Below, piece by piece: positions 15,610-54,675 of a stretch of DNA of 64,000 nucleotides (its first letter is position 1; the number at the start of each line of letters is the position of its first letter). Location: contig CP021225.1 in the NCBI GenBank assembly GCA_003999685.1, forward strand, positions 620,001-684,000. Direction: 5' to 3'. The translations under genes were made by a program, and so were the position numbers. Source of the DNA: Taiwanofungus camphoratus (Eukaryota > Basidiomycota > Agaricomycetes > Polyporales > Taiwanofungaceae). The notes under the pieces were generated by a model that saw only the letters and a program-made list of their open reading frames with translations, had not been told where the DNA came from and did no database searches.

Positions 15610-15839
15610 CGAGGGTTGTATCGTTTGTAAAGGGTTTAGACAATAGATTGTAGAATCAACACAGCAGTTTCCTAAAACGGTAAATTCGGCCGCAGCCGGC
15701 GGAGAATGAAAGAGGCCCGTGCATTGTGGCCTGACCGAAACACGCCTCGTTGACAATCTGCTGCCACCAACGCGCTCTAGAGATCGTGACTTGGGGCACG
15801 CTTCTGTTCTCTGCTTGATTTTGTCGCGCTGCTTTGACA

Positions 15840-19450: not shown

Positions 19451-20091
19451 AGTGAAGATCGCAAATCAGCGCCTGACGATGCAGAACATGATGGATCTGT
19501 ATTGGCGCATTGCGAGAAGCTACAATGCCACAACTTGGACGAGCAACCCATTCATGTATAGAAATGGCTGACGGAGAGCTCAAACTCAGGGCTCAAAGCT
19601 CATGGCGTGTGCTTGAACACAGACGTGTGTCGCCGTCGCACGTTATTCTGTTAGCGCCCGTCCAGTAGAACTGCCAAGCAGATGCAATTATAACTTTACA
19701 CAAATGTACTACTCATTGCCCTCAACCTTAGATAAAAATCTTCCGAGAATGCAGAGGAATTGTGAAAACGCGCCTCATTTCCACGGGTATACTGTGTCTT
19801 CGTGATTTGAGGTAGATGTACTGCGATATGAGTATCTAATTGACCAGGAATGTCTTGAGCATGACATAACTAGTTCATTTTGGAGCCCTCGCCCTATCGT
19901 ATCTTCCATGAAATATAGTGAAGCTGCTTACGTCTGATACAAAGTTATTCGTCTCGCCGTATCACAATGTCGGTAAAGTTATAAGGTCCAAAAGGGCTGT
20001 TAGCCCGGGGAGGTCTTCATATCCGGGAAGGGTAGCGAGACTGTTGATCTATTAGCCGGTCCACATATGTATGAACAGATCTGCGGCGTGC
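19451..20091. other. convergent intergenic region
   Basis: Lies between the 3' ends of the DUF6533 gene (+) and the phosphotransferase gene (-). No feature recognised. Confidence 0.5.
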
Positions 20092-21507: not shown

Positions 21508-22219
21508 GGCTTAAATAGAGACGTCATGGGTGTGAGGAGGATAGATGGATATCTACACGCGTTTTAGGGTCCAAAACACGGACACAATACCTCATGAAGA
21601 ATGAAGGCGATCCTCTTGCTGCCTGGGTACTAGTGAACAGGCTCTAGACCGCAATCGGTCCCACTCACGAGGTCCACAATTTCTCGAGGTCAATTTGGGC
21701 CAGGCCAAAATGACAAAGTTACAAAATTGAGGCGAGAAGGTAGTATTATAATCTGTCACGAACGAGTTGCCGCTCAAGGTCCTCACTGAAAATATCCTCA
21801 CAGACCAGAAGTGTGATATGCAGGGTCAGTGATGTGGATATCCGCCAGTCAAAGAATCCGGATATCCATCCTGGAGCTGTCAAACGTGATTCTTTAGCGG
21901 TCCTCGAGTCTAAAGAATTGATATGTAGGATCACTCACTCCAAGGACACATCGTAAGGGTTATACAGATATCTGAAGGATACTTATCGGACGGAAAAGAC
22001 GAGTTCTGAAATGCGATATAGGTCGACAGATAACAGGCTCTGATCCACGCCAGCACTATGAACGTTTTCAGTTATCCGAGGATATAACACTAGATAATGT
22101 AGACGGTCCGGATTTCAGTCACGGTTCTGAATCTGAACAAACAACCCTGAAGCGCTCGTTCCCTGCGCCATGTCGCCGCGTCCTTGAAGTGACTCCGTTT
22201 GCCACTCAAGACTGTGACG
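21508..22219. other. intergenic region with an open frame of unclear meaning
   Basis: A plus-strand frame is open from about 22,004 to 22,262 (for example DFSHGSESEQTTLKRSFPAP). It overlaps the first exon of PCC1 in another frame. It may be chance, or an upstream exon. The rest holds no recognised feature. Confidence 0.35.
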
Positions 22220-22622
22220 ATGACCACCAGCGACGGCGACCATTGGCATACTACGTGAGGGTTTGACTGTTGTGAATCCTATGCCTTATTTCCAATGTGC
22301 TCAACCACCGCAAGTACCGTTCGCATACCCTTTGCATCAGAGAAGCATGCAACTATCGCGAAACAAGTGATTGAAGTAGACAAGGAGCTCCAACCACGAG
22401 CAGTGAAGAGAACACTGATGGTGGAAGATAACGTGTTGATTGGGTGCGTATTGGACTGATGCCACTTTAGACATTGCATTTATTCTTCGGCATAGCACTT
22501 TCGCGACTTTGACAGTGAGGCTCACTCGGCTTACGGTGAATGCGTTCCTCGAGAACGTCGATCTCGTTGCTCGTACCATAGGTGAATTCGGAGAAGATGC
22601 AGAACGTGGTCCGTGCAAATAA
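22220..22622 (+). CDS. PCC1: Pcc1 subunit of the EKC/KEOPS complex, 96 residues
   Basis: Pcc1 is the small dimerising subunit of KEOPS, which makes the t6A base of ANN-decoding tRNAs and in yeast also affects telomeres and transcription. Three exons (22220-22254, 22315-22443, 22496-22622) give 97 codons including the stop. The protein begins MTTSDGDHWHTTTVRIPFAS. It then shows the family pattern: EKHATIAKQVIEVDKELQP, a VKRTLMVEDNVLIGTF strand, and the conserved LTVRLTRLTVNAFLENVDLV helix, ending EFGEDAERGPCK. The introns are 60 and 52 bp with GT..AG ends. Each exon is short, so no single long open frame reveals the gene. It is convergent with the PA2G4-like gene, 70 bp away. Confidence 0.9.
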
Positions 22623-22692
22623 ATCATGCATTGGATGTGTTTGACAGCGTAGGCATCAATATCAATACATTCGTCAGAAGACTAATCTTCGT

Positions 22693-24211
22693 TCACTTCT
22701 CCTCTGCCGCCTCTTCTCCCTCAGCCTTCGCCTTCTTTTTCTTGCTCTTCTTGTCCTCCCGCAGAGGCTTTGTGAGAAGCTCTTTGAACTCAACGTCCTC
22801 CAGCTCCCTCTCAGTCTTGACCAGCTCGGGCTTGTACCAGACGGGAGGATGAGTGATCATCACCGGACCGGCTGGTAGCAGCGCAATCGTGAAGTGGAAG
22901 CCAGCGACAAAGGTATTCGACGGTGTGTAACTGAGGGTAGACTACATGAGAAAAAGCCAATGTATCGATACTCTTCATCAATACTCACATCACTTCGTAT
23001 GGCTTGACCAACGTATGTTGTTGTGCCTCCTGAAGTCCCAGACGCGCTCGCTTCTCATCCTCCAAACAACGGATGTTGAAGGGGAAGGCCCCGGCCTTCT
23101 TTTGCACCTCCGAGAATACAGCACGCGACGTCTTCATCTTCAGCTGGTATGTGACGTTTGAGTCCTTTTGGTATATTGTCGTCCGCGATTCTTCAAGTCG
23201 CGCCTGCTCGTGGTCTGAAAGTGAGTGACGGTACACAAAAGGCTGAATGAGTCATCACCTTGCCATCCTCGCCGGAAGAAACCAGAATATCGATCCCATA
23301 CACCTCGTTCTCCGCAAAGACGACCGTCTCAAATTCCTTCTTCTGAATTTCCGACTGCACCGACGTCAGGATGTTTTCAAGGAGAGTTCCATTTCACATA
23401 CTGGATTGAGAATGATTCGTTTCTTGCCATCAATGATATTCTGCGTCTGCTGGCACGACAACATCCCTAGATGTACATCGATCGAAAACACCGATTCATT
23501 GCAGATGACGGTACTCACCCTCGACCGGCTTGCAATCCCATGATGCAGTAACCTTGCTGACAGCATCTGTGATTGCCCAGTTCTTGTTTCCAACCTTCAC
23601 CAACCGCATTACAATTTCAGCCGCGCTCCAGGCGGCTTTGAGCACGTCTGCACGTCTTCCAGTGACAGGATCCGACTCCGTCGCGCCCACAACTAGCGTC
23701 TCCGCGCTGACAGCAGCGAAGCCATCTATGTGTGCTCCGATGTGCAATTTGACGACATCGTTTTTGGCGAGTGTTTGTGAAGACAGAGGGTCGGATGCGA
23801 GCGGGGAGAAGTGAGCAACGGCGTTGTTTACTGATACACAAGTCGGGAATGCAATTCCTATGCTCGTGGAGACGAACACTCTGTCAATGCAAATACGGAT
23901 CCGGTGCTGAAAAAGATGAACGCACCCTTGCCAACTTTCACACCCTTGATTGGCTTGTTGTACACTGCTCCGGTGCCTTCCTCGATGAGCTTATCGCCTT
24001 CGACGCAGATATCCAACACTTTCGCCCCTTCCACACATAGGTCTACAAGTTTTTTCATCACATTGTTCACAATATCTGCCGCGGTCTACATAAAATTCAA
24101 GTGAGATTCCGATCGCCATGTCAAACACGGAAGGGAAATCCTGTTCACCTTGTATTTCGTGACATCAACCTGGACGGTTGTATCCACTGCGGGTTTGGTG
24201 GCTTCAGACAT
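22693..24211 (-). CDS. PA2G4: PA2G4/EBP1-like protein (M24 metallopeptidase fold)
   Basis: Relatives (human PA2G4/EBP1, fission yeast Cdb4) have the methionine-aminopeptidase fold but no known peptidase activity; they bind ribosomes, RNA or curved DNA. The start at 24211 gives MSEATKPAVDTTVQVDVTKY; intron 24088-24148. Then TAADIVNNVMKKLVDLCVEG, CVEGDKLIEEGTGAVY, and after an intron GIAFPTCVSVNNAVAHFSPL, NDVVKLHIGAHIDGFAA, AWSAAEIVMRLVKVGNKNW and VTASWDCKPVEG. Later exons hold MLSCQQTQNIIDGKKRIILN, GIEFETVVFAENEVYGIDIL, YQLKMKTSRAVFSEVQKKAG and FPFNIRCLEDEKRARLGLQE. The protein ends with a lysine-rich tail KKSKKKKAKAEGEEAAEEK, as in EBP1, where it mediates RNA binding. The M24 metal ligands are mostly absent, fitting a non-catalytic role. 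Confidence 0.88.
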
Positions 24212-37856: not shown

Positions 37857-37993
37857 ATGATTGAACGCCTGGTCAATCAACTAAACTCCAATGGGGGAGC
37901 GCGTCAAGTCTTGAACTGAACTCTTGTGACCGATGACAAACATTGACGAACTTCCGAGGACGAACTTGAAAAATTCCTGGAAGTAACGAGCGG

Positions 37994-39600
37994 TGATGAG
38001 TCCCGTAGCCTCCTGGGCCCCGAATCGCGATTTTAGGAGCTTTCTGATCCCCCAACCGACCACTCTAAGACTCTCCTACAGCCTACGACAGGAGGGATAG
38101 GTTCCTATAATATTCCTAACGCCCCCTCTCCTTCCTAAACCCTCCTAACACCCTACGAAGTCTTGTGAAGTCACACGAGGTGCTACGAGATTTCGAATGC
38201 TAGACGCGAAGTCCCTAACTCCTGCTAAGTCCACTATCGGACACTGCCGGCCCTCCCATACTGTTCCATTGGATCTAGGTCCTATCTACTACGTCACTCA
38301 TCCCGGGCTTAGCTAAGAAGTCTTAGCTAAGTCTCTCCTAGCTCTTGTGATTGCAGCTACCTCTGATAGGCTCCGAAACGGTCCGAAGTTCCGGAAGTTG
38401 GACTTAGGAAGCCTTGTGCACCCCCATGGGTCTCGATCCTATGCCATAAGGTCATCCTAGGGCGTACCCATATGGCCCTCCACCCAGTTAGGACACCTCC
38501 TGCCCCGATTAGGCCAAGTCCCGCTGCTAAGAACTTTGTGCGCTCTTAGCCCGCTAAGATAGGTGATCACGGCGCATGGCTGCTCTCAGATAGTCATCCC
38601 GCCCTCGTGAATGAAGTTGGTCACCTTTCTACCATTCGTAGTTCCCCTGTTTCAGTTCCTAATTAGTTCCTATCCCCCTCGTGTTCACTTCGGAGTCCAT
38701 GCGTTTTAGTACACATTTCGGACTCGTAAGGATCACTTCGTGCAAGATTAGTTCACCTCACGCTCCCCTATTTAGTCAGAGGTAGTTTACTATGTACAAC
38801 AGAGACCCCTCAGTGCACGCTTCTCTCTTTGGAATACCAGTTCCCCTGTAGCTCCGATCTCAGGAAAGCGCCGCGAGTACAACCTTAGGAACGGTCCTAA
38901 GGTCCCTAAGTCTCCACCCCAGCTTCGTTTCAGTACCTTTGAACTACGTCTACGCTCGCGATATATCTACGAACCACGTCTACGCTTCCCGAACTACGCA
39001 CTATGATCTACGAAAGTCGCCGTGACTTCGCACCCTTCCGCACCTCTTATAGCACCTATCCGGTGGGCCTCCGCCTTAGTTATACCCTTAGGCTCATGTT
39101 GCGTCATCCCTACGTCCTACGAATAGCCCTACGACTCTCCCATAGCCTTAGTTTCAGGCTATAGTACATCTCCCTACGCCCTCGAACTCTTCGACCTCTC
39201 CTACAGGTCTCCTACGCTAGCCAAACCTCGCCCACCTCGCTCTAACAAACCTCTAAACCTTACGCCCTTTAGCTAACTCTAGCTAAAAGGACTTTGCAGC
39301 ATCTACGAAGTCAGCTCGTGCGATTTAGCTAAAACTTCGAAGGACTTCGCAGAATCTTGAAGAACTTTGCGTACTTTGGAGGGCCTCGCAAGGCCTTAGG
39401 GATAGTATAGCACTTAGGAACAAGATCCTGTTGTGCAGGACCCTTGACCCCTTACTCCCCTACTTACAAAAACAAGACATACAGGTTTCCCGGTATCATA
39501 CAGGTTGTAGCTCCTACCCTCACACCCTCACAGTTATCACACTACCCCCAGCCACGTTACGGAGCGCTCCCTAGGTACCAGGGTCCCCTAGGTCGTATCA
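37994..39600 (+). mobile_element. solo LTR of Gypsy family B (B1, 1,607 bp)
   Basis: Runs from TGATGAGTCCCGTAGCC to CTAGGTCGTATCA and is flanked on both sides by GCGG (37,990-37,993 and 39,601-39,604), a clean 4-bp target duplication, inside the 3' untranslated part of copy A1. No internal retroelement sequence remains. It lacks the roughly 90-bp segment that LTRs B3 and B4 share, so it belongs to the shorter LTR subfamily with B2. Confidence 0.9.
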
Positions 39601-39637
39601 GCGGATGTTTCACCGCGACCTGTAAGGGATGATCCTT

Positions 39638-39730
39638 GAACCCATAGGGGATGACCCCTCCAACCGTGAGGATGTTTCACCTCGAACCCATAGGGGATGA
39701 CCCCTCCAACCGTGAGGATCCTTTCACCTC
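39638..39730. repeat. two tandem copies of a 46-47 bp unit
   Basis: 39,638-39,683 and 39,684-39,730 both read GAACCCATAGGGGATGACCC and continue through TCCAACCGTGAGGAT to TTTCACCTC. A third, partial relative precedes them (39,601-39,637). They lie after the third ORF of copy A1, between it and the 3' LTR. Confidence 0.85.
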
Positions 39731-39795
39731 AAACTTTACAGTTTTACGACATGTCGGTCGTATGGTGTAGTTTAATGACGTGCACGGTCGTTCCC

Positions 39796-40074
39796 TCACA
39801 GTTTAGCGACATGCAGGAACCACTCTGGATGATACGGCGGTTCCGGGTCGTTGGCGAATGCGTAATGTACGGTGGTGCATTCACGCGTGAGATGCCCGGG
39901 CGATGGGCGACTACAGCGGAGACATTTGTAGTTGGGGCACGTCCGGTGCGAGTGACGAGTGCTACCACAGAGGTAGCATGGACCGTAGCGAGTGAACGAT
40001 GACAAGGAACCATTTGTCTGAGACATGCGAGCGATGAGTGGGGTGAAAATGTGACTTTTTCTTTTCTTTCTCAT
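39796..40074 (-). CDS. third ORF of Gypsy A1: small double zinc-knuckle protein
   Basis: 92 residues, start ATG at 40,074-40,072, overlapping the pol stop codon by four bases (ATGA). It opens with a basic MRKKRKSHIF. The core CYLCGSTRHSHRTC and CLRCSRPSPGHLTREC are two CCHC-like knuckles (CX2CX4HX4C type), different in sequence from the single knuckle in gag. No other domain is seen. Its position after the chromodomain end of pol is unusual for Gypsy elements. It could be expressed by termination-reinitiation or from a spliced message; it could also be a chance frame, but the paired C/H spacing argues for selection. Confidence 0.6.
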   Translation of the reverse strand: MRKKRKSHIFTPLIARMSQTNGSLSSFTRYGPCYLCGSTRHSHRTCPNYKCLRCSRPSPGHLTRECTTVHYAFANDPEPPYHPEWFLHVAKL

Positions 40075-41603
40075 CGTAAGTCCTTGCGCTGCTTATATGC
40101 GCTTAGCAGCTCGTCCGCAGTACCGGCTAAGTTCTCTTCCAGTTCCCGTGAGTCATCGGCGGATGAGTAACCTTTCCACCTGACTCGGTATTCATGGCGG
40201 TTTCTTTGGCGATTCTCACGATGTCCGACCAGAGCTTTGACTTCGTAGTTATCTTCGCCGCTGATAAGCTCGGGTGGTGGTTCCATGTAGTTGGGACCAT
40301 GCATGTCTGTCTCGGTGTACGGCGAGAGGAGGGCGGCGTGGAAAACGGGGTGTACTCGCCAAGTCGTCGGGAGTTTCAGTTTGTAAGACACCAGTCCTAG
40401 AACATCCGTGATTTTGAAGGGTCCCTCGTGCTTGGGAGCCAACTTCCTTGTCGGGTATGGCAGCTTTAAATTCTGTGAGTCTAGCCATACCTTCTGTCCT
40501 TTGCGGAAACCCGTTCCTTTGGGTTTCACACGTTTTGCTAACACCGCCTGTGCTAGCTCCATTGCAGAGTGTGCGTCTTCCCAAATCTTCTGCAAGTTCC
40601 GCAGTCGATAAGCGGCACCCGGTGTGTCCGATCCGGGGTGTACGACAGGAATCCCTCGAGGTTCATAGCCCATCATGACCTTGAAGGGTGATGCCTTGAT
40701 TGTAGAATGCTCACGCGAGTTGTGAGCGAACTGTGCTGAGCCCAGCAGCGATGACCAGTTGTCCAGGTTGTTGCTCGTGAAGCATCACAGGTAGATTTCC
40801 AGTTCCTGGTTGACTTGTTCTGTCTCTCCATTCGTCTGAGGGTGGAACGCTGTGCTCATGGCCGACTTGACTCCAGTCATACGGCAGAGCTCCTGGAATA
40901 CCTTTGATGCGAATTGTGGTCCTCGATCGCTAATGATCTTGTCCGGAAGACCAAACCACTTGTAAACCTCGCGATATAATGCCTCGGCTGTTCCTGATGC
41001 GTCAATCGTTTTGTTGCATGGAATGAAAATTACCCCCTTCATAAGGTCGTGGTCCACAACAACCAAAATTGAATTGTAGCCCTCTGAAGTCGGCAAATCC
41101 GTAATGAAATTGCAGCAGAATGTACTGAACGGAGTGGCGTGCTGCGCGGATTTGATCGGGAGTAGGGCCGGTCGGGTGGGGTGTGTGTTGACTTTCATTT
41201 GCTGGCATGTGCCGCAACCTTTGATGTATTGTGTGACGAAGTCAGCCATTCCGGGCCACCAGTAGTCTCGTCGGATAGACAAGAGGGTTTTCTGAATTCC
41301 GGGATGGCCGGCGGAGGGGAGGTCGTGATAATTCGAGACCGTTTGTCGTTGTAGGTCCTCGTCTAGGGGAATATACACCCAATTATCGTAGAGGAGGTCA
41401 CTGTCTCAAATCGTCCAGTGGTCATTTGAGCCATTTTGTGCGTTGCGCATCCCTTCTGCGTACAGCGAGTCACTTACGCATGCTTCCGTGATGGAAGCCC
41501 TGAGACTCGTGTCGATTGCTGCTGTCCAAACCTTGTCTGGTAGGATGGTTACATCCTGGTTGTCTGATGAACCGTCGTCGTGGTCGGGGCGTTGGGAGAG
41601 CGC
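40071..41603 (-). pseudogene. pol of copy A1, 3' part: integrase and chromodomain
   Basis: Resumes in the tether after RNase H and reads the integrase zinc finger (HDLPSAGHPGIQKT ... CGTCQQMK), the catalytic core (FITDLPTSEGYNSILVVVDH; FGLPDKIISDRGPQFAS; MSTAFHPQTNGETEQVNQEL), then VWLDSQNLKLPYPTRKLAPK and a C-terminal chromodomain (YEVKALVGHR ... YRVRWKGYSSADDS). The chromodomain has SRELEENL where W-EP-ENL is usual. Nonsense codons stand at 41,406-41,408 (CGA in A2, TGA here) and 40,785-40,787 (TGA in EIYL-stop-CFTS, beyond the part of A2 that can be compared). The left end touches LTR B2. Confidence 0.88.
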
Positions 41604-42584
41604 TGATACGACCTAGGGGACCCTGGTACCTAGGGAGTGCTCCACAACGTGGCTGTGGGGTAGTGTGATAACTGTGAGGATATGAGGGTAGGAGCTACAA
41701 CCTGTACGATACCGGGAAACCTGTATGTCTTGTTTTTGTAAGTAGGGGAGTAAGGGGTCAAGGGTCCTGCACAACAGGATCTTGTTCCTAAGTGCTATAC
41801 TATCCCTAAGGCCTTGTGAGGCCCTCCAAAGTACGTGAAGTTCTTCGAGATTCTGCGAAGTCCTTCGAAGTTTTAGCTAAATCGCACAAGCTGACTTCGT
41901 AGGTGCTGTGAAGTCCTTTTAGCTAGGGTTAGCTAAAGGGCGTAAGGCTTAGAGGTTTGTTAGAGCGAGGTGGGCGAGGTTTGGCTAGCGTAGGAGACCT
42001 GTAGGAGAGGTCAGAGAGTTCGAGGGCGTAGGGAGATGTACTATAGCCTGAAACTAAGGCTATGGGAGAGTCGTAGGGTTATTCGTAGGACGTAGGGATG
42101 ACACAACGTGAGCCTAAGGGTATAACTAAGGCGGAGGCCCACCGGGTAGATGCTATATGAGGTGCCGAAAGGTGCAAAGTCACGGCGACTTCGTGGATCG
42201 TAGTGCGTAGTTTGGGAAGTGTAGATGTGGTTCGTAGATATATCGCGAGCGTAGACGTAGTTCAAAGGTACTGAAACGGAGCTGGGGTGGAGACTTAGGG
42301 ACCTTAGGACCGTTCCTAAGGTTGTACTCGCGGCGCTTTCCTGAGATCGGAGCTACAGGGGAACTTTGTATTCTGAAGTAGTGTTGCCGCGGCTTCAGCT
42401 TGAAGCCGGCTGATAGCCGGAAGCTGAGCCGCGACTTTCAGCGACTCGGCTTGTTTCGGCTATGCCAATAACCGGCTCTGCCTGCATCGACTAAAGTCGT
42501 AGCCGTGACTTTGCAGTCGGCTGTAGCCGGTAGGGTCGAGATCACGTGATGCTCTCTACGGGCTGGTACTGTCACACGGTACTG

Positions 42585-42985
42585 CTGTGGTTACACATCT
42601 TTGGTGGTCAAAACACAAGGCCATCCACAACTCGGTCTACAGCGGCAGCTCTACTGCTGCAGCTGCCTCCTCCAGCAAGCTCCTGCTCACCTTTTGCCCC
42701 AAAAAGCCCTCCCCACCCTCCGATGGTGACCTGGTGTTCCTCCATGTGCCCCACGCTGCAACAGACCCCCCCGTGCTACCCCAGCAGCGCCCGCTTCGAC
42801 TTGGGCCATGACTTGCTTGGCCCCTCACCGTCCAAGGCGCACCTGTTTGCCGCCTACACTGACCCTGCGGCCCGCTCCACTGCAAGAAGAGCAAGCCGTC
42901 GCCCCCACTCCCGCCTATGCCTGTGCTGGCTCCCCTGCCCAATGGGGCATTCAACCTGCGTGCCTTCCGCCACGTCCGTCCCGCC
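42585..42985 (+). pseudogene. captured gene fragment 1 in the hAT
   Basis: GC-rich, gene-like sequence in which plausible protein text changes frame more than once: LLLTFCPKKPSPPSDGDLVF, LHVPHAATDPP, then SKAHLFAAYTDPAARSTA. The parent gene is not recognised. The frame changes suggest introns or decay. An opposite-strand frame is also long, but GC-rich sequence produces this by chance. Confidence 0.4.
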
Positions 42986-43560
42986 TCCCCTGAGCCCTCT
43001 GAGCTGCCGCTGCTCCACCCACCCTCGGTGCTGTCCGGTGTCTCGGCGAGCAGCCTCGCCCCGCCTGGTGCTCGCCCCTGTGCAGGCAGCTTTGCGTCCA
43101 CGTCCACGTCGCCACCAGACTCGCCGCAGCGGATCTCGGTGGCTGCGTTCTGGGAGATGGCGGCGCGATGCAGCGCTGTGAACTCGCCGTCGCCGTCCTC
43201 GGCGGACCTGGCGCGCGAGGGCGCATCCTCCTTCGGCCGGCCCACGTGCACGTCCCCGCCTGCACCTCGCCTGCCCACCAGGGTCGTCGACGCTGGGCCT
43301 GAGGCGCAACGGCATGATCACGCCGCGGTCTGCTGCAAAGGCGCGCTCGGAGCTCGGGCACCGCGCACGCCCGTTGCCCGTGCAGGCCCCGGTGCGCACG
43401 ACGCCGTCGAGCTCGGCGCAGTCGAACGGAGCGCGACAGCGTATACAGCCACGCGTGGGCGTCGGTGTCGACGTCTGCGCTGATGCCGAGCACCGCGGCC
43501 AAGCGCGCGTCGATGCTGGCTGCTGCGAACAAGGGCACGTCAGGTGAGCCTCCGGTCTTG
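42986..43560 (+). pseudogene. captured gene fragment 2, first copy of a duplicated segment
   Basis: Encodes EPSELPLLHPPSVLSG, SPQRISVAAFWEMAARCSAV and NSPSPSSADLAREGASSFGR, then, in another frame, text matching GVRRNxxITPRSAAKARSEL and SALMPSTAAKRASMLAAANK. The RISVAAFxEM and serine-rich style is common in large basidiomycete regulatory proteins. The same order recurs at 44,975-45,660 at clearly lower than perfect identity, so the duplication is old or two related gene regions were taken up. Confidence 0.5.
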
Positions 43561-44974
43561 TGCTTCTTTCCCCCTTGCCTTGCCTGTTCGCGTCCTTGCC
43601 GAGCATGCACTCACACCCTCCCACAGGCTCCACCACAGACCTGCAACGCCCACCGCCCACCAAACGTGAACGCGCTCCTCCCGGCTCGCCCCCGACGCCT
43701 AAAGCGCACATCCCGCATCCAGCGCATCCCCCACTTGGGGTGTGCATGCGCAGCCGCTGCTGTCAGCCTGCGGCGTGCATGCTAGCTCGCTTCCCCGCTG
43801 CTCGTCTCGCTTCGACCCTGGCATCGTGCGAGAGGGCTACGCCACATCCGCCGCACGCCCGTCCCTCCCACGTCCCAGGCCTGCAGCCAGTCCTACCGAC
43901 CACGCATCTGGCCAACTGCTGTCTCGCGCGACCTGGCTTTCGTGCTCCCCGCATTCGCGCGCTGGCCACGGCACACCTGCTCAATACAGAGAAGAGCCAG
44001 GGTCTGTGGATAGGCGAGGTGGCTCCGTCTCCGGAACGTGCAGGCAGCAGTCAAACTTGCTGTACGACAGGCAGGGTGAGACTTTGTCGTTGCCCGCCCA
44101 CTGCGCTCGCCGCGCGGGCCGGCGCGCAAGTGGCGCGCAAGTGCACCATGTCGCAACTCGCTCAGACAGGAGCGCTACCCTCTCGCCCTCTCGCTCCCCC
44201 GCCCACTGATGGCTGTCACAGGTCGTGGGCGGCGGGTCCGTCCCGGCCTAATTCTGATGGGTGGTGCGTATCGCTGTGCTCGGGCATCTGACGGATCCGA
44301 CAACGAGCGCTCTTGCCTGCATCGCGGGACCGGTGTGCGGAGGCGCACAAGCGCTTCGAGGCCTGGTGTGCTCCGCGCCATGTGCGCTGCCCGTGCAGAC
44401 CATCCGAGCAGGCGCACCACTCTGTTGCGCTCGAGTCTCAGCTAGCTACCGGCCCAGCCCAGACCAAGCCGCGTCCCACCGCGCCCGGTGGTGCGTGTGC
44501 AGCGATCGGTCTCAGATGTTTCCCTCGTCTGGTGTCGCTCGTGTGTGGGCCGCTTTCCACGCGCGGTTCTGCAGCATGCTGTGGCGGTTGCCCTAGGGAC
44601 AACAGTCACCGTTCTTCGACGCGATCAGGCAGAACCTCGAGGTCGTGCGTGGGGCGTGCGCCAGAGGGCGGGCGACCTGCCGTCCGAGCGGCCGCACGAG
44701 AATCACGCGGAGGAGCAGCCGTGCAGCGGAGAGCGCGACAAGGGAGACGAGGAATCAAGGAGCTATCGACTTTGGAGGAGAGCGCGTGCACGCTCAGAAG
44801 GGAGAGAGCACAGCGGAGGCACTCTGCTCCGTGCTCGGTCATGCCATACCCAGCACCTCCGTGCACATCCGGGAGGCCTGGGGCACTGGCACGGGCTGGC
44901 GTCGTGCGTACAGAAAAAGACTATCTACCGGTAAGTTGACGCTATATACTATTTTTCAGGCCTCCTCGCACGGA
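43561..44974. other. interior hAT cargo of unknown origin
   Basis: GC-rich sequence between the two copies of the duplicated segment. Long overlapping frames exist on both strands without recognisable domains. CACGCTCAGAAG and related words recur. It may consist of several gene pieces, and its parents are not recognised. Confidence 0.35.
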
Positions 44975-45660
44975 CGGCTCGGGTCCGCCAGAGCTGCCAC
45001 TGCTGCGCCCACCCTCGGCGCTGTCTGGGATCTCCGCGAGCAGCCTGGCGGTGGGCGGCGCCCATCCGCGTGCGGGCAGCTTGGCGTCGGCGTCGGCGTC
45101 TCCGTCGCCGACAGCAGACTCGCCGCAGCGGATCTCGGTGGCTGCGTTCCGGGAGATGGCTGCACGTCGGAGCGCAGGGAACTCGCCGTCGCCGTCGTCT
45201 GGGGACCTGGGGCGCGAGGGGGCGTCACCCTTTGGCCGGCCACCATCTGCACTGGGGCGCACGTCGCCGGCTGGGCGCAGGACACGGCACCGTTGGGCGG
45301 CAGCATCAACGCACTCGACGTCATCCGAGCCAGATTCGGACTCGGACTCGGACGCGGACGCGGATGCGGACTCCGGGGAAGACTCGGCAGGGTCGTTGAC
45401 GGTGGGCGTGAGGCGCAACCGCACGATCACACCGCGGTCGGCTGCAAAGGCGCGCTCGGAGCTTGGGCACCACGCGCGCCTGTCGCCCGTGCATGCCCCG
45501 GTGCGCATGACGCCGTCAAGCTCGGTGCAGTCGAACGCAAGCGGGGGCCGCCACAGCGTGTACAGCCGGGCCCGACGTCCGCCCTGATGCCCAGCGCCGC
45601 GGCCAAGCACGCGTCGATGCTCGCTGCGGCGAACAAGGGCGTGGCTGCCCACGCGCAGCC
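44975..45660 (+). pseudogene. captured gene fragment 3, second copy of the duplicated segment
   Basis: Reads PELPLLRPPSALSGISASSL, SPQRISVAAFREMAARRSAG, NSPSPSSGDLGREGASPFGR, an acidic DSDSDSDADADADSGEDS run (45,333-45,385), GVRRNRTITPRSAAKARSEL and SALMPSAAAKHASMLAAANK. It is longer than the first copy because it keeps the aspartate-rich stretch. The better reading frame suggests that it is nearer to the parent gene. Confidence 0.5.
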
Positions 45661-45677
45661 AGACCGCGCCCGCAGAC

Positions 45678-46475
45678 ATGCCCCTCCCGCTGTCCACATC
45701 ACCCGCGTCGCTCGCGTCCGTACCTTCGCTCGCATCGCCCACCCCGCCCGCGTCCCCCGCTTCGGTATCGGCCCCTGCGCCGCCATCACCAACAACTGCG
45801 CGGAAACCGAACGGCCGCTCGCTCTCGACTCTGGACGCCGGCGCACTCGTAGGTGAGGGCGTCAAGGACCTCTCGGGCCCGGCGCCGATCGTGCCCACGC
45901 CGATTCGCGAGCGCTCGCCCCCGCCAGCGTTCAGCGTCACTTCGCGCCCCACGTTGCAGACGCAGTTCGCCGGCGTGCAGGGGCAGACGCCGTACTCACT
46001 GCAACAGCAACAGCACCAGCTGCAGGCACAACAACAGCAGCAACAGCAGCATCAACAAGCGCAACAGCTGACTGTACGCATGATCAGCTCCCCGCCCCAG
46101 CTCCCGCCCTCGCCACCAGCTCTGCCCGCCGGCAGGCAGCCGCTCATCCCCAACGGCGGCATGCCCCCTTCGAAGGGCTTTACGGGCGGGGGGCTCCTTG
46201 CGAGCGCCACGGCGAACCCTACGGTACCAAGCAACCCGCCTGCGCCCGCACTGCGCGCCACCGCGCCGCGACGGCGAGCCAGGCGTCAGACGCCCCGCGG
46301 TAGGACCAGCCACAGACGCTCTGCCCGTTCGCCCGTTCGCGCGGCCGCTCGGGCGCACGGGCAGCCCTGCGCGCCAGGCCAACTCGGGATCTGGATCGGG
46401 CGTGACGTCGTCCTCCGCGTCGTCGCTCTCGCTTGCGGCGCCTGCGCAACTGGCACCGAAGGCACTGGGATGTAG
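45678..46475 (+). pseudogene. captured gene fragment 4 with a polyglutamine tract
   Basis: A 265-residue open frame that seems to continue fragment 3 after a frame change: proline/serine-rich LASPTPPASPASVSAPAP, then RKPNGRSLSTLDAGALVGEG, then a glutamine/histidine tract QQQQHQLQAQQQQQQQHQQA at about 46,005-46,060, LPPSPPALPAGRQPLIPNGG and a basic, arginine-rich end. Such composition is typical of fungal transcriptional regulators. It stops about 300 bp before the right end of the hAT. No parent gene is recognised. Confidence 0.5.
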
Positions 46476-47626
46476 TACATCCAGCTACATAGTTACCTGC
46501 ATTTTTCCTGATGTTTTGGTTATGTTTGTATTAGAGACGTCACATTGCATCCTAGGTGAAGTAATTGTTATCCATTGTAGATTCTTATATGTAGTATATA
46601 TAGCAATATAACTGAATATATCAGAGATGGTTTAGTCCCACACATCGACTAGAGTCGACTTTGAGTCGCGGCTTGTAGTCGAGCCGATCACAAGCCGCGA
46701 CTTGCCAAGTCATAGTCAAGCCGTGATATGAGAAAGTCGCGGCTTGTGGTAGTCGGTTTGCGACTAGCCGAGCCGCGGCAACACTATTCTGAAGAGAGAA
46801 GCGTGCACTGAGGGGTCTCTCCCGTACATAGTAAACTACCTCTGACTAAATAGGGGAGCGTGAGGTGAACTATTCTTGCACGAAGTGATCCTTACGAGTC
46901 CGAAATGTGTACTAAAGCGCATGGACTCCGAAGTGAACACGAGGAGGATAGGAACTAATTAGGAACTGAAACAGGGGAACTACATACGGTAGAAAGGTGA
47001 CCAACTTCATTCACGAGGGCGGGATGACTATCTGAGAGCAGCCATGTGCCGTGATCACCTATCTTAGTGGGCTAAGAGCGCACAAAGTTCTTAGCAGCGG
47101 GACTTGGCCTAATTGAGGTAGGAGGTGTCCTAACTGGGTGGAGGGCCATATGGATACACCCTAGGATGACCTTATGGCATAGGATCGAGACCCATGGGGT
47201 GCGCAAGGCTTCCTAAGTCCAACTTCCGGAACTTCGGACCGTTTCGGAGCCTATTGGAGGTAGCTGCAATCACAAGAGCTAGGAGAGACTTAGCTAAGAC
47301 TTCTTAGCTAAGCCCGGGATGAGTGACGTAGTAGATAGGACCTAGATCCAATGGAACAGTATGGGAGGACCGGCAGTGTCCGATAGTGGACTTAGCAGGA
47401 GTTAGGGGCTTTGCGTCTAGCATTCGAAACCTCATAGCACCTCGTGTGACTTCGCAAGACTTCGTAGGGTGTTAGGAGGGTTTAGGAAGGAAAGGGGGCG
47501 TTAGGAATATTATAGGGACCTATCCCTCCTGTCGTAGGCTGTAGAAGAGTCTTAGAGTGGTCGGTTGGGGGATTAGAAAGCTCCTAAAATCGTGATTCGG
47601 GGCCCAGGAGGCTACGGGACTCATCA

Positions 47627-49209
47627 CCGGTGAGTTACACATCCCAAAGAATATTACCAGGGGTTCGTAGAACGAGGGAGGTCCCTCTCCTGCTGCTGGA
47701 ACACCGAAGGCTGCTTTCCATTCGTCTCCTTCCTTGATGCGAAGGTTGTTGTATCCCTGATGAAGGTCCATCTTTGTGAAGATCATGGCGTTATTGAGGC
47801 GTTCCAGAAGCTCCGTTACAAGGGGAAGGGGGTATCTGTCCTTGATTGTTCCCTCGTTGAGTTCCCTATAGTCTTGGCATGGTTGGTATCCGCCGTCCTT
47901 CTTATCCACAAAGAAGAACGGGCTTGCGAGTGGTGATTTGGACGGTCGGATGTACCCTTTTTCTATATTCTCTTCGAGGAACTTGTCCAGTTCCGCTCGT
48001 TGATCCTGGTTGAGAGAGTACGTCATCTGCTTGAAGTCCTTAAAATCCGGCTTGAGATTTATCTCGTGGTCGAACTCTGAATGCTGGGGAAGCCTCGCTG
48101 CTTTGGCTTTGTTGAACACCGGGAGGAGGTCGTGGAGGTACTCGGGGACGAGTTCCGTGACCGGTTTCTCCTCTTTCTTGGCATGTTCCTTGATCACGAG
48201 TTCCGTGGACATGGTGAGTCGACCAATGTTGTGCGTGACCTGCCAGATGAGACTGTTTCCGAGACGACGATATGCTTCATCAAGAGGGTACTTCTTTTCC
48301 GTAAGAGGTGCGTCTCGATACGCCGGGTACAAGTTCCGTCCATATGTCATGATTCGATTGTCTCCTTCGATGAACGCTATGACCAGTTCATCGTCGTCGA
48401 TCGTTTCCATCGCCTGATCCAATGTGATACCGTTGACCGATTCTTCTACTAGGGGTGCGACTGGGGTGTTGTGGTGTGCTGTCTGCCTAGACATGTCTGT
48501 CGTCGGTAAGACAGGAGACATGGTGTCGATCACCTCGAAGTCTTCTTCGTCTTCTACCTCCTCAATGGTGGGCTGCCATTGTTGCTTGAGGTGTTTGTCT
48601 CGTTCGGCGAGGAATGCCGCTACCTGTGGACAAGGGGGTGCTGACCAGTCTACCTCACAGTCTAGCACGAGATCCAGGGCTTCTTCCTGTTCTCGTTCGG
48701 CTAGTTTCTTCAGCTCCAGTCGCGCTACTTATTGCACAATGATCCCTTTCTTCCACTCTCGAGACTCTTGTAGGGTCATGCGGTGCTTCAGTTCCACACG
48801 ACCCCCCTTCCAGTCAATACTGGGGTTCTTGAGTTTGAGCCATGTATGTCCGAAGATGATGTCCTCATTCCCTATACTGGCCACGTATGCTTTGACAAAT
48901 CGGGGCTCGTTCCCAATTTTGTACGACAGCAAGGCTCGCTTGTGGATGAGCACTTGCTTGTTGGCAGTGCCGTCCACGTTGAACACCGGTATAGGACGTG
49001 GTAGCACCTCTGTCCATAACTTGTGTTCCTTAACAAATCGTGGATGCACGAATATTCCTGATGCGCCACTATCGATGAAGGCGCGGGCTTCGACGGCTTT
49101 TCGTCCCACAGTAATCGGAATGTGAAGAGCTCTGTCATTCCGGACTACAAGTACAACATGGGACAGTGAAATGGATACGGGCAGTGGTTGCATCGGCTCA
49201 CCCTGCCCC
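47627..49209 (-). pseudogene. pol of copy A1, 5' part: protease and reverse transcriptase
   Basis: Follows gag by a -1 shift at the same GATTTTTAAAGGGG site as copy A2. The aspartic protease shows ARAFIDSGASGIFVHPRFV. A stop at 48,729-48,731 (KKGIIVQ-TAA; CGA in A2, changed at both CpG bases) cuts the frame. The RT part reads TELVPEYLHDLLPVFNKAKA, SPLASPFFFVDKKDGGYQPC, QDYRELNEGTIKDRYPLPLV, IFTKMDLHQGYNNLRI and FFGMCNSPV, where it meets LTR B2. The YxDD box and RNase H are absent, in the deleted piece. Confidence 0.88.
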
Positions 49210-49210
49210 T

Positions 49211-50572
49211 TTAAAAATCCTCCATTCCTAACTCCTCGAACATCGCCCTCTTCTCGTCTGATGAGAGTGTTTTGATGTATGAGTGGAAATCCATGGGGGA
49301 TCGCGCCTCAGGTTCCTTCGAGGTATTCCTTTGGCCTAACTTGGCCATCTTCTTCGGACACTTGCGCACCGCGTGTCCCCCCCTGTGGCAGTAGAAACAG
49401 AGACGGTTGTCCATGTGGTATTTCCTTTCTTTCTCGCTAAGACTGCATCCGTCCTCCCATTTCTTGATGAACGGTGTGGGACGTGGGGTAACGAGTGCGT
49501 CCACCTCCATGGGTTCGCCATAGTCAATGTCGGGGGTGGCGGAGAGGGTTTGGTCGATCTCTCTGTAGATGGCATCGAGGTGAAGAACATCGGCGTACCA
49601 TTTCTCCATGGAGTTGGGTCGTTCCGTATTGGTGCGGCCCGCGAGTGTCGTGTAGATCTGGCGGTCCAGACCTTTGATGAAGATCACCCTCAGCGTGGGG
49701 TAATCATTCTCGGTGTGTTGGCCTTGGAGGCTCGTGAAGGCATCCTTTAACTTGGCCTTCTCTGCCAGGAGTCGGAACCTTTCCACGTACATCTTTATAC
49801 TGACCCTGGTCTTCTTGTTTAGTTGCTTGACCGGCAACTCCATTAGCACCTGATGAGCCCTTTGGACTCCTTCGTGCTCGGGGAACACGAGTCGCAAGCT
49901 CGCCTTGAATACGTCCCAGCTAGCGTAGGGAGCGTGCCCTCCTGTGGCCCGTTCGTAAAACATATCGCGCCAGATACGTGTGTCCTGCCCTCCTTTCATG
50001 AGAGCGACTGTGTAAGCGATCTTTGCATCATCGCTTAGCCCCTGGTTGTTGGTGGCAGTGAGGTAGTGCTCCACCCGCTGGAGGAAACGCTCCAGATCTT
50101 CTCCTTGCCCGGTGAACGGCTCCGGTGCAGGAATGTCGAGCTTGAGGGGTCAACTCCCCTGTTGCTGTTGCGCCAAAAGGTGCGTTATGAGCGCTTCGAG
50201 CTCCGCCCTGGTCATTGTTGCGATAGTAGCCATCGTGGTGGGGGTGGTAGGTGTTACGGGGGTGGAAGGAAGTGATGGGAAGGTGGGAGTAGTCGGGGTG
50301 GCTATCAACGGTGTTGACGGTATCAACACGGGAAAGAAACCAGCTGGATCCCTTCCGTCTGGCAGAGGGTTGCGTCTGAAATAGGAGGCTAATTTCTCCT
50401 GTGCTCATCGATCTGAAATTGTCCTTGCCCACACGAGTGGGGAGTTCGGGTAGATCAGATCAAGGTTCTGGTCAATGAAAGTCCAACGAAGACGATCGTA
50501 CAGAAGCGGCGTGTCGTTTGGTTGAGTCGGCAATCTCCAAGCGGTGGGGTTGACTGTCTTGATGGTAGACAT
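49211..50572 (-). pseudogene. gag of copy A1
   Basis: 454 codons including the stop, exactly the length of gag in copy A2, from an intact ATG at 50,572 (MSTIKTVNPTAWRLPTQPND). A single nonsense codon at 50,152-50,150 (AGT-TGA-CCC; A2 has CGA) breaks it at about codon 141. The capsid region is RFLQRVEHYLTATNNQGLSD-like, and one zinc knuckle CFYCHRGGHAVRKC lies near the end. The reading frame is otherwise uninterrupted. Confidence 0.9.
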
Positions 50573-50641
50573 GGTGTCTAACGGTTAGCCCTACTAGATA
50601 AGACTAGGGGCGACTTAGCGTAAGCTGGTATCAACGACCGG

Positions 50642-52408
50642 TGATACGACCTAGGGGACCCTGGTACCTAGGGAGTGCTCCGCAACGTGGCTGTGGGGTA
50701 GTGTGATAACTGTGAGGATATGAGGGTAGGAGCTACAACCTGTACGATACCGGGAAACCTGTATGTCTTGTTTTTGTAAGTGGGGGAGTAAGGGGTCAAG
50801 GGTCCTGCACAACAGGATCTTGTTCCTAAGTGCTATACAATCCCTAAGGCCTTGCGAGGCCCTCCGAAGTACACGAAGTCCTTCAAGATTCTGCGAAGTC
50901 CTTCGAAGTTTTAGCTAAATCGCGCGAGCTGACTTTGTAGGCTGTATAGAGTTAGGGAGCAATAAGCCAATGGACTATAATTTCTACTAAGCGGCAGAGG
51001 GTACAAGACTGCTGCGAAGTCCTTTTAGCTAGAGTTAGCTAAAGGGTGTAAGGCTTAGAGGTTTGTTAGAGCGAGGTGGGCGAGGTTTGGCTAGCGTAGG
51101 AGACTTGTAGGAGAGGTCGGATGGTTCGGAGAGCTAATACTTGGAATAGGGATGAGGGAACGAGGTTGCTGGAAGCTCTGAAGTGTCTGGTGACGTCGAG
51201 GTGTGGGTCGGAGAGTTCGAGGGCGTAGAGAGATGTACTATAGCCTGTAATGAAGGCTATGGGGGAGTCGTAGGGTTATTCGTAGGACATAGGGATGACG
51301 CAACGTGAGCCTAAGGGTATAACTAAGGCGGAGGCCCACCGGATAGGTGCTATAAGAGGTGCTGAAGGGCATGAAGTCACGGCGACTTCGTAGATCGTAG
51401 TGCGTAGTTCGGGAAGTGTAGACGTGGTTCGTAGATATATCGCGAGCGTAGACGTAGTTCAAAGGTACTGAAACGGAACTGGGGTGGAGACTTAGGGACC
51501 TTAGGACCGTTCCTAAGGTTGTACTCGCGGCGCTTTCCTGAGATCGGAGCTACAGGGGAACTAGTATTCCAACGAGAGAAGCGTGCACTGAGGGGTCTCT
51601 GTCGTACATAGTAAACTACCTCTGACTAAATAGGGGAGCGTGAGGTGAACTATTCTTGCGCAAAGTGATCCTTACGAGTCCGAAATGTGTACTAAAGCGC
51701 ATGGACTCCGAAGTGAACACGAGGAGGATAGGAACTAATTAGGAACTGAAACAGGGGAACTACATATGGTAGAAAGGTGACCAAGTTCATTCACGAGGGC
51801 GGGATGACTATCCGAGAGCAGCCATGCGCCGTGATCACCTATCTTAGTGGGCTAAGAGCGCACAAAGTTCTTAGCAGCGGGACTTGGCCTAATCGGGGCA
51901 GGAGGTGTCCTAACTGGGTGGAGGGTCATATGGGTACGCCCTAGGATGACCTTATGGCATAGGATCGAGACCCATGGGGGTGCACAAGGCTTCCTAAGTC
52001 CAACTTCCGGAACTTCGGACCGTTTCGGAGCCTATCAGAGGTAGCTGCAATCACAAGAGCTAGGAGAGACTTAGCTAAGACTTCTTAGCTAAGCCCGGGA
52101 TGAGTGACGTAGTAGATAGGACCTAGATCCAATGGAACAGCATGGGAGGGCCGGCAGTGTCCAATAGTGGACTTAGCAGGAGTTAGGGACTTCGCGTCTA
52201 GCATTCGAAATCTCGTAGCACCTCGTGTGACTTCGCAAGACTTCGTAGGGTGTTAGGAGGGTTTAGGAAGGAGAGGGGGCGTTAGGAATATTATAGGAAC
52301 CTATCCCTCCTGTCGTAGGCTGTAGGAGAGTCTTAGAGTGGTCGGTTGGGGGATCAGAAAGCTCCTAATAATCGCGATTCGGGGCCCAGGAGGCTATGGG
52401 ACTCATCA
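50642..52408 (-). mobile_element. LTR of Gypsy family B (B3, 1,767 bp)
   Basis: Element orientation minus. It carries the roughly 90-bp segment shared with B4 (51,125-51,215) and a further 66-bp segment near 50,945-51,010 found in no other copy here. The left flank CCGG lies in the 5' LTR of copy A1; the right flank CCGC lies in a different sequence (the spliced fragment at 52,409-52,809), so the two flanks do not come from one insertion. Confidence 0.88.
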
Positions 52409-52809
52409 CCGCCTCCACACGAAGTCGTTCGGTCGCGCGGGCGAGTTTGTGCTGTGCGTCTCGCTCTTGAAGCATAGCAGCGAACTGAGGAAAGCCGGTG
52501 CGGGCCCACGAGATCCACGACGAGTCCGCGAGAGGGAGGATCGCCGTCAAACCTTCGACGATGGCGGCCTCTAAGGTAGGATCGGCGGGAGCATTCGAAG
52601 CCTGGGACAGGACCCACCAGTTACCCTATAACGCAGTGAAGACGATGTAACGAGCGATCGAGGAGGGTACGTACCACACAACGTCCTAAGTTCCTCGCCC
52701 ACCGCAGATAATCTTCGGCCTCCGCTACGCCCTCCGGACGAGAATCGAGGAGCGCCAGGACATCGCTGTGAGCTAGGCCAACACCATCAGAGTCCATATC
52801 GTCGAACAT
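52409..52809 (-). pseudogene. 5' end of an unrecognised spliced gene, cut by LTR B3
   Basis: Starts MFDDMDSDGVGLAHSDVLAL at 52,809. An intron (52,674-52,626, GTACGT..ATAG) keeps the frame into GNWWVLSQASNAPADPTLEA, then GLTAILPLADSSWISWAR and ERDAQHKLARATERLRVEA, where the LTR begins. Clean splicing and codon use say gene rather than noise. No family is recognised; the last part looks helical. It may be a host gene or an extra gene of a retroelement. Its 3' part is missing from the window. Confidence 0.5.
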
Positions 52810-52976
52810 GATGGGGAAGGGAAAGGCAAAAGGGGAGGAGGAGAAAAAGATAAGAGGCACCCACGATTAGCTTCTATCAGGATATCGCCCGCTTCGCAGA
52901 TCGGATGCGATAGGCTACAAGTTCCCACGGTCGCGCACACTGACTGAGGACAGTCAGGATTTCAATAGGGAGGAGG
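52810..52976. other. upstream region of the cut gene, next to LTR B4
   Basis: 167 bp with a pyrimidine-rich stretch just before the ATG at 52,809 (minus strand CTTTTTCTCCTCCTCCCC), as in fungal promoters. No further feature. Confidence 0.4.
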
Positions 52977-54675
52977 TGATGAGTCCCGTAGCCTCCTGGG
53001 CCCCGAATCGCAATTTTAGGAGCTTTCTGATCCCCCAACCGACCACTCTAAGACTCTCCTACAGCCTACGACAGGAGGGATAGGTTCCTATAATATTCCT
53101 AACGCCCCCTCTCCTTCCTAAACCCTCCTAACACCCTACGAAGTCTTGCGAAGTCACACGAGGTGCTACGAGATTTCGAATGCTAGACGCGAAGTCCCTA
53201 ACTCCTGCTAAGTCCACTATTGGACACTGCCGGCCCTCCCATGCTGTTCCATTGGATCTAGGTCCTATCTACTACGTCACTCATCCCGGGCTTAGCTAAG
53301 AAGTCTTAGCTAAGTCTCTCCTAGCTCTTGTGATTGCAGCTACCTCTGATAGGCTCCGAAACGGTCCGAAGTTCCGGAAGTTGGACTTAGGAAGCCTTGT
53401 GCACCCCCATGGGTCTCGATCCTATGCCATAAGGTCATCCTAGGGCGTACCCATATGACCCTCCACCCAGTTAGGACACCTCCTGCCCCGATTAGGCCAA
53501 GTCCCGCTGCTAAGAACTTCGTGCGCTCTTAGCCCACTAAGATAGGTGATCACGGCACATGGCTGCTCTCAGATAGTCATCCCGCCCTCGTGAATGAACT
53601 TGGTCACCTTTCTACCGTTCGTAGTTCCCCTGTTTCAGTTTCTAATTAGTTCCTATCCTCCTCGTGTTCACTTCGGAGTCCATGCGCTTTAGTACACATT
53701 TCGGACTTGTAAGGATCGCTTCACGCAAGATTAGTTCACCTCACGTTCCCCTATTTAGTCAGAGGTAGTTTACTATGTAAGAGAGAGACCCCTCAGTGCA
53801 CGCTTCTCTCTTTGGAATACCAGTTCCCCTGTAGCTCCGATCTCAGGAAAGCACCGCGAGTACAACCTTAGGAACGGTCCTAAGGTCCCTAAGTCTCCAC
53901 CCCAGCTTCGTTTCAGTACCTTTGAACTACGTCTACGCTCGCGATATATCTACGAACCACATCTACACTTCCCGAACTACGCACTACGATCCACGAAGTC
54001 GCCGTGACTTTGCACCTTTCGGCACCTCATATAGCATCTACCCGGTGGGCCTCCGCCTTAGTTATACCCTTAGGCTCACGTTGTGTCATCCCTACGTCCT
54101 ACGAATAGCCCCTACGACTCTCCCATAGCCTTAGTTTCAGGCTATAGTACATCTCTCTACGCCCTCGAACTCTCCGACCCACACCTCGAAGTCACCAGAC
54201 ACTTCAGAGCTTCCAGCAACCTCGTTCCCTCATCCCTATTCCAAGTATTAGCTCTCCGAACCATCCGACCTCTCCTACAAGTCTCCTACGCTAGCCAAAC
54301 CTCGCCCACCTCGCTCTAACAAACCTCTAAGCCTTACGCCCTTTAGCTAACTCTCGCTAAAAGGACTTCGCAGCACCTACGGAGTCAGCTCGTGCGATTT
54401 AGCTAAAACTTCGAAGGACTTCGCAGAATCTCGAAGAACTTCGCGTACTTCGGAGGGCCTCGCAAGGCCTTAGGGATAGTATAGCACTTAGGAACAAGAT
54501 CCTGTTGTGCAGGACCCTTGACCCCTTACTCCCCTACTTACAAAAACAAGACATACAGGTTTCCCGGTATCACACAGGTTGTAGCTCCTACCCTCACACC
54601 CTCACAGTTATCACACTACCCCACAGCCACGTTATGGAGCACTCCCTAGGTACCAGGGTCCCCTAGGTCGTATCA
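52977..54675 (+). repeat. 5' LTR of the family B element (B4, 1,699 bp)
   Basis: TGATGAGTCCCG to GTCGTATCA. It contains the extra 90-bp segment (54,165-54,255) also present in B3. It is in inverted orientation to B3, 568 bp away. The left flank is GAGG, unlike the GC-only flanks of the other copies. Confidence 0.9.

Follow-up and report, generated by a model that had tools for sequence, protein, structure and literature searches.

A gene-capturing hAT transposon family in the mushroom Taiwanofungus camphoratus: a Pack-hAT element and its large transposase-bearing relatives

Introduction

Capture of host genes by hAT transposons has been described in plants, animals, and fungi. Here, we examine a 4.4-kb element of this kind in a 64,000-nt stretch of the basidiomycete Taiwanofungus camphoratus (assembly GCA_003999685.1, contig CP021225.1, positions 620,001–684,000; hereafter the window), together with its relatives in the 33.2-Mb genome. 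Plant Pack-TYPE elements, including Pack-hATs, combine superfamily-specific terminal inverted repeats (TIRs) and a target-site duplication (TSD) with captured coding fragments and no transposase (PMC8903248). The window element resembles them in each respect, whereas its host is a fungus, one gene appears to have been captured twice, and transposase-bearing relatives are rich in host DNA. Among animal Pack-TIRs, 208 of 370 are hATs; these also enclose copied host DNA between hAT ends, are explained by gap-filling or fork-switching models, and are multicopy in four reference-genome cases and one fly-population family (PMC8277862). In contrast, kilobase segments from several loci have been amplified in T. 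camphoratus together with an open transposase.

In ascomycetes, histone-H3-carrying hATs are known from Pyrenophora tritici-repentis (~5.6 kb; PMC3538342) and Pseudocercospora fijiensis (9.5–9.9 kb, 8-bp TSD; PMC6710886), and, as here, they bear a transposase, carry a housekeeping gene, and are amplified. Those elements hold one small gene, whereas pieces of four large genes fill ~78% of 23.5 kb in this basidiomycete, where the mutation bias is at CpG rather than CpA. The Puccinia rust element hAT7 is likewise a gene-carrying hAT in a basidiomycete, though with a 7-bp TSD and a TET/JBP dioxygenase gene (PMC12730594); in the present family, the TSD is 8 bp long and the cargo consists of pieces of several housekeeping genes that reside in the genome. 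ToxhAT (~14 kb) of wheat-infecting ascomycetes is similarly a large hAT-like element with cargo, but that cargo is an effector gene region (PMC12506042, PMC6737239) and not fragments of resident genes whose donors are still in place. Gene capture by an agaricomycete DNA transposon is known from Pleurotus ostreatus, where the elements are Helitrons rather than hATs (PMC4289320).

Pack-hATs and transposase-bearing, gene-carrying hATs are thus already known (PMC8903248, PMC8277862, PMC3538342, PMC6710886, PMC12730594), and the view in the initial annotation of this DNA that such elements occur mainly in plants is outdated, given the animal (PMC8277862) and ascomycete (PMC3538342, PMC6710886) examples. 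What is new is the extent of capture, in transposase-bearing copies, in a mushroom family; among the papers listed in searches of the open-licence literature, there was no gene-capturing hAT from a mushroom and no mushroom family of this extent. Multi-gene capture by hATs is thereby extended to a mushroom and to a larger scale (~78% copied host DNA in transposase-bearing copies), with donors that can be identified and captures young enough for their joins to be read.

Results and discussion

A Pack-hAT element in the window

The window element (4,408 bp) has the ends, target site, and cargo of a Pack-hAT. Its left TIR, TAGTGTTGCCGCGGCT, has an exact complement at the right end (16/16 bases), and the perfect 8-bp TSD TTCTGAAG stands on both sides. 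When the flanks were joined by script and matched within the window, they aligned over ~600 bp to each of three stretches without the element (54107–53510, 96.7%; 51276–51874, 95.5%; 39125–38527, 95.0%), for which the label "LTR" (long terminal repeat) is that of the initial annotation. These empty sites, together with the TSDs, demonstrate past transposition. Within 260 bp of the ends, there are repeated subterminal 8-mers, among them AAGCCGCG and AGTCGCGG with four occurrences each (both strands). The GC content is 66.5%, versus 49–51% in five larger copies of the family described below. The initial annotation had placed a Pack-type hAT element at exactly these coordinates, and its description of exact terminal repeats, subterminal repeats, a perfect duplication, an empty site in sibling repeats, and a GC-rich interior was confirmed.

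The features of the element, with positions in the window, are as follows.

42371..42378, no strand: left TSD, TTCTGAAG
42379..46786, no strand: Pack-hAT element, very probably non-autonomous, 4,408 bp; bounded by exact TIRs and an 8-bp TSD, with three empty sites
42379..42394, plus strand: left TIR, 16 bp
42379..42620, plus strand: left terminal and subterminal family DNA; first 171 bp 82–84% identical to the giant copies, right limit set by the start of the host match
42621..43644, plus strand: first, older capture of a host gene on contig C1; host matches to 43580, shared with an element on C13 to 43644; three blocks and tree
43544..43626, plus strand: host intron 1, of which at least the beginning is kept (GTGAGC...CACAG); far end read by eye
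43645..44981, no strand: filler, ~1.1 kb without a source found
44609..44822, plus strand: fragment similar to C1:545055–545257, 70–80% identity
44982..46466, plus strand: the younger of the two captures of the C1 gene; host locus positions 3492–4168 missing at the join 45641–45643; tree bootstrap 100
46467..46516, no strand: right part of an unrelated ~130-bp miniature inverted-repeat transposable element (MITE), whole in the C13 element
46513..46556, plus strand: 44 bp surviving from the first capture, derived from the 3' flank of the C1 gene; 86% identity
46557..46786, minus strand: right subterminal and terminal family DNA; last 138 bp 81–83% identical to the giant copies
46771..46786, minus strand: right TIR, 16 bp
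46787..46794, no strand: right TSD, TTCTGAAG

No transposase was recognized between these ends, as the initial annotation had also reported. A Pfam scan of 10 of the 32 listed open reading frames (ORFs) returned none at the curated cut-off (the best match was TFIIA, E 0.0095, on a glutamine-rich stretch), and none of the 49 matches to the giants' transposase, listed from 24 scored candidates, fell in the interior. The interior as a frame-shifted transposase found no support from the ORF listing, the transposase search, or the Pfam scan. Helitrons are rolling-circle elements without TIRs or TSDs, and the window element has both. Searches for the tyrosine-recombinase captain of Starships (DUF3435, PF11917) gave no match in this genome, but control genomes likewise gave none; Pfam scans of one giant (10 ORF pieces plus the transposase) returned hAT only.

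Two copies of one host gene

The cargo derives mainly from a gene that still stands on contig C1 (minus strand within 3955659–3964658), so one refuting condition named in the initial annotation, that the cargo has no counterpart among ordinary genes, does not apply. Our three-exon model (2180–3497, 3590–5553, and 5616–6455 in the minus-strand reading of the locus) encodes 1373 aa, and the protein has 124 homologues at E ≤ 0.001, the best of the 120 listed being from T. camphoratus (84%). The left capture matches host locus positions 2304–2550, 2694–3003, and 3201–3530 at 77.8–79.6%, and the right capture matches 2795–3491 (82%) and 4169–5000 (90%); approximately the first 41 codons of the gene are absent from the element. 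The alignment of the left capture crosses into host intron 1 (locus 3498–3589) and covers 33 bp of it; the source was therefore DNA.

The two copies have different histories. The left copy is 86–90% identical to the C13 element, and in trees of two segments it clusters with the elements on C13 and C9, while the right copy groups with the C1 host gene (bootstrap support for the split was 100 in both trees). Because the copies group differently, either the C1 gene entered on at least two occasions or host-gene sequence overwrote the right part. On its right side, the second capture ends inside a MITE that the C13 element keeps whole at the corresponding place (94.4%, 126 bp). This ~130-bp MITE family has ends like ACATCAGGAAAAA, and numerous copies in the genome resemble its right half (94–98% identity).

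Between the captures lies ~1.3 kb of filler, ~200 bp of which resembles C1:545055–545257. That locus adjoins an ORF with the motif HCSAGVGRTGG, which we take to be a phosphatase motif, and a phosphatase gene fragment is thus a probable second captured gene.

A family with large transposase-bearing copies

The same ends recur across the genome, as the initial annotation had proposed to check. The TIR consensus (≤1 mismatch) occurs 67 times, compared to 12 for a reversed control pattern, and these matches resolve into 21 pairs plus 25 unpaired ends. At five places, end pairs matching the window element stand 11–31 kb apart, and all five large copies have 16-bp TIRs (the C5 copy has a single mismatch in its right TIR) and a perfect 8-bp TSD.

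C4:2064149–2087603: giant, 23,455 bp; TSD TCCCTACG
C3:2081299–2112503: giant, same core plus nested element; TSD TACCAGGG
C2:3102789–3126248: giant, 23,460 bp; TSD GACCACAG
C11:1198912–1228471: giant, same core plus nested element; TSD GAGTGATC
C5:1693045–1704386: deletion copy, 11,342 bp, without 2,629–14,733; TSD GTCAGAGA

The left TIR of the window element is identical to both TIRs of the four giants, whose 23.5-kb cores are 99.25–99.57% identical to one another. The initial annotation had singled out the 4.4-kb element as an unusual example; it is real, though the smaller part of the story, since its 23.5-kb relatives hold far more captured DNA. The nested insertions in the C3 and C11 giants look young and are bounded by direct repeats (503 and 573 bp) with 99.8% identity.

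Smaller members include a 3,736-bp copy (C13:264331) with a perfect 8-bp TSD and two copies ~84 kb apart on C9 (C9:1195474 and C9:1279284; 3,507 and 4,301 bp). Since the C9 copies have both the TSD GCTGGAGT and their 12-bp flanks in common, they probably arose by segmental duplication and not by separate insertion events. TSDs were inspected at 9 of the 21 pairs (the window element, C2, C3, C4, C5, C11, C13:264331, and both large C9 elements) and at a nested C9 MITE, and the 8-bp length characteristic of hATs was found at all nine. The smallest TIR pairs span 286–742 bp, six of them 380–387 bp. The ~386-bp, MITE-sized pairs carry the family TIR, and one of them (C9:1197279–1197664) is nested in the larger C9 member with its own TSD, CCATGTAC. 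Two C9 pairs ~14 kb long (1158035–1171616 and 1233404–1247461) join different TIR types and were not counted as elements.

The giants supply the hAT transposase with matching ends that the initial annotation had suggested looking for. In the C4 giant, our model has ten exons (11498 to 14549), and the C4, C2, and C11 models encode 831, 831, and 834 aa without stops; in the C3 giant, the nested insertion interrupts a transposase exon. A simple script picked the splice sites, and the models disagree on the first intron, making the protein approximate. The model matches Dimer_Tnp_hAT (E 9.7e-17) and Hermes (E 5e-8), and its 20 related proteins reach up to 52% identity (Grifola 49%, Amanita 48%), the named ones coming from Agaricomycetes. 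D279, D350, C382-x2-H385, and R488-W489 are invariant across nine aligned sequences, and the third acidic residue (in an SERxFS motif) diverges in one of the nine; these positions correspond to the catalytic residues and the CxxH...RW motif of hAT transposases. Among 24 candidates scored in this genome, near-identical transposase matches were confined to the giants, and distant ones lay at C9:250188–252385, C3:1198279, C7:719704, and C14:968076–969227. Judged from the shared ends, the giants' transposase may mobilize the window element in trans.

Host DNA in the giant copies

Approximately 18.2 of the 23.5 kb of the C4 giant (~78%) matches four host loci, a value measured in C4 and extended to the other copies by their identity. 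All four donors are still in place, each on another contig (C13, C9, C6, and C10). In C4 element coordinates, the segments are as follows.

588–3790: FKS1-type glucan synthase, 96–98%; donor C13:969617–973339; plus a 53-bp piece at 3923–3975
3977–10386: unknown conserved gene, 96.0%; donor C9:917707–924113
14650–15673 and 19295–23193: fatty-acid synthase alpha (FAS), main pieces 95.5–98%, small ones 80–91%; donor C6:213404–222823
15674–19302: BRR2 helicase, 97.2%, 3,629 bp ungapped, inside the FAS segment; donor C10:1612176–1615804

A further donor candidate, C2:1417391–1418205, was rejected because it is itself a piece of a family member and carries a right TIR.

The structure of these segments bears on how host DNA entered. 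The BRR2 match is ungapped over 3,629 bp although the donor coding frame changes along it, and introns were therefore copied too. Capture through mRNA, by retroposition into the element, would suit the observation that the recognized captured genes in the giant read in the transposase direction, but it conflicts with the ungapped BRR2 match, with the partial intron 1 in the window copy, and with the presence of that intron within the matched stretch in the C13 element. It is excluded for the segments checked (the C1-gene captures and BRR2) and, as a general route, extremely improbable. Composite mobilization, in which two neighboring family insertions move as a unit with the host DNA between them, has been proposed for plant Pack-TYPE elements including Pack-hATs (PMC8903248) and would account for the long contiguous captures (6.4 and 3.6 kb). 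However, internal TIR remnants (14-bp core, ≤2 mismatches) were absent from the C4, C5, C13, and window elements, the BRR2 segment sits inside the FAS segment, and the donors remain in place on four other contigs. We therefore disfavor this explanation and consider it unlikely.

Captured and resident genes were also compared through the ratio of nonsynonymous to synonymous substitution rates (dN/dS). Seven of the longer frames, among 25 rows of donor frames open for ≥110 codons (spurious ones included), gave 0.12 and 0.25 for BRR2, 0.16 and 0.10 for FAS, 0.31 for the unknown gene, and 0.44 and 0.09 for FKS; other possibly real frames gave 0.30–0.75, and spurious ones up to 1.8. Because the ratios are low, our data suggest that much of the captured-versus-resident difference is allelic and predates capture, though they leave room for selection on the captured copies. 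In C4, there were three stops in the 1594-codon frame, two in a 302-codon FKS frame, one in a 383-codon FAS frame, and none in the two BRR2 frames given above.

Apparent exchange with host alleles, and mutation pattern

Within the unknown gene, 36 clustered sites of the C2 copy (5419–6321) agree with the resident gene, unlike C4, C3, and C11. The tract also carries private differences (over 929 bp, it departs from the resident gene at 40 positions), and its ~1 kb therefore came from another allele of the captured gene. Farther along the unknown gene, over 6331–8500, all four copies are 0.5–0.8% from the resident gene, with zero transversions, compared to 3.7–6.5% on either side. Clustered tracts between copies were not found in FKS, BRR2, or FAS, which had 0, 0, and 4 scattered single-copy sites agreeing with the donor. 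Separately, a glucan-synthase stretch of the C4 element (3141–3790) differs from its donor at 31 and 28 positions per 300 bp, versus 1–8 in the eight other 300-bp intervals; these differences are mostly synonymous, and the stretch is perhaps a different allele.

The four cores differ at 255 variable sites, of which 242 are transitions, and 164 of those (summed) are CpG transitions. This excess fits the decay of methylated cytosines and suggests that the elements have been methylated.

How the cargo may have been gained

Taken together, these results mark the window element as very probably a Pack-hAT that is non-autonomous. In the best-supported account, which we consider quite probable, it would be mobilized in trans and would have gained its cargo by DNA-templated repair with template switching. 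From sequence comparison, we infer a repair pathway in which an element would be cut or excised and the gap filled by a repair polymerase, which could switch to host genes and copy them in. Failed repair might leave copies with internal deletions, of which the 11.3-kb C5 element would be an example, and a gene piece, once inside, would by its homology make re-copying of the same gene likely. Such homology-biased re-copying fits both the double capture in the window element and the allele tract in one giant. At the base level, the internal FKS join has an exact 4-bp shared overlap and the C5 deletion join an exact 5-bp overlap, lengths given as observed; the overlaps reported by blast at capture joins (4, 6, and 8 bp) overstate microhomology.

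Several observations weigh against this interpretation. Only an imperfect overlap was found at the join 15061–15066, and both BRR2 joins (15673/15674 and 19302/19303) show zero microhomology base by base, the second having shown 8 bp in blast; microhomology at the joins is thus not general. None of the 24 scored candidates was a transposase-bearing element closer to the window element than the giants, which share its 16-bp TIR with left subterminal DNA only 82–84% identical. No source was found in this genome for ~1.1 kb of the filler (43645–44981). Finally, the near-identical tract at 6331–8500 of the unknown gene may have passed from host to element or the reverse.

A close rival, possible in our view if somewhat unlikely, is replication fork stalling and template switching followed by transposition (FoSTeST), in which cargo is gained without repair of an excision gap. 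This model, proposed for multicopy animal Pack-TIRs (PMC8277862), would accommodate donors on other contigs, multicopy amplification, and short overlaps at some joins with none at others. Taken alone, it does not predict repeated exchange with a captured gene, though this is a weak argument, as the footprints of the two models are similar.

Glucan synthase, fatty-acid synthase, and BRR2 are essential genes, as known from yeast. If hATs were to grow by accretion, re-copying dikaryon alleles as a fresh sample of essential genes, camouflage against homology-based silencing would be conceivable; we regard this as a doubtful conjecture, under which the host might pay a price for silencing an element through its homology to captured essential genes. 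The CpG excess suggests that methylation has occurred all the same. With near-identical giants, the C5 deletion, a double capture, and an allele tract, gene pick-up by TIR transposons becomes testable in one tractable genome.

Probable cargo annotated as host genes

Two annotated T. camphoratus proteins look like transposon cargo, because they match giant DNA past a capture boundary or the window chimera. In AcV5_000019 (from a 12-member cluster), the last 41 residues are encoded by giant DNA at and beyond the boundary, where the donor no longer matches, and 29 of these correspond to C4 positions 10522–10608 with 100% identity. The protein also shares the C2 tract, with one residue difference over 5403–6450 (comparable positions). 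We had read AcV5_000019 as a resident orthologue and the capture as coming from a T. camphoratus-like lineage, based on 10 residues shared by element and AcV5_000019, against 5 by donor and element (4 of them at the extreme C-terminus), 1 by donor and AcV5_000019, and 19 unpolarized; that reading is withdrawn, as AcV5_000019 itself corresponds to a giant's captured gene.

The second protein, AcW2_005835 (954 aa), matches most of the window chimera (three of four main blocks at 91–95% and one at 69%) and, used as a query, added no further source for the filler 43645–44981. Its annotation could indicate that the cargo now functions as a chimeric gene on which selection acts, but the matching window blocks lie in different frames, several with stops, the second copy does not keep the host frame intact, and annotation is not expression; we consider a working gene very unlikely. 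AcV5_000019 and AcW2_005835 are thus a warning that captured copies may already be annotated as host genes in T. camphoratus.

No T. camphoratus protein occurred among the 20 matches to the giants' transposase, which may therefore be unannotated there. The T. camphoratus genome paper reports class I and class II elements with an emphasis on retrotransposons, and the terms "hAT" and "DNA transposon" are absent from its main text (PMC8865532).

Around the window element, positions 37990–54675 hold a repeat cluster of several LTR-like stretches (~0.3–1.4 kb, 94–98% identity) in both orientations.

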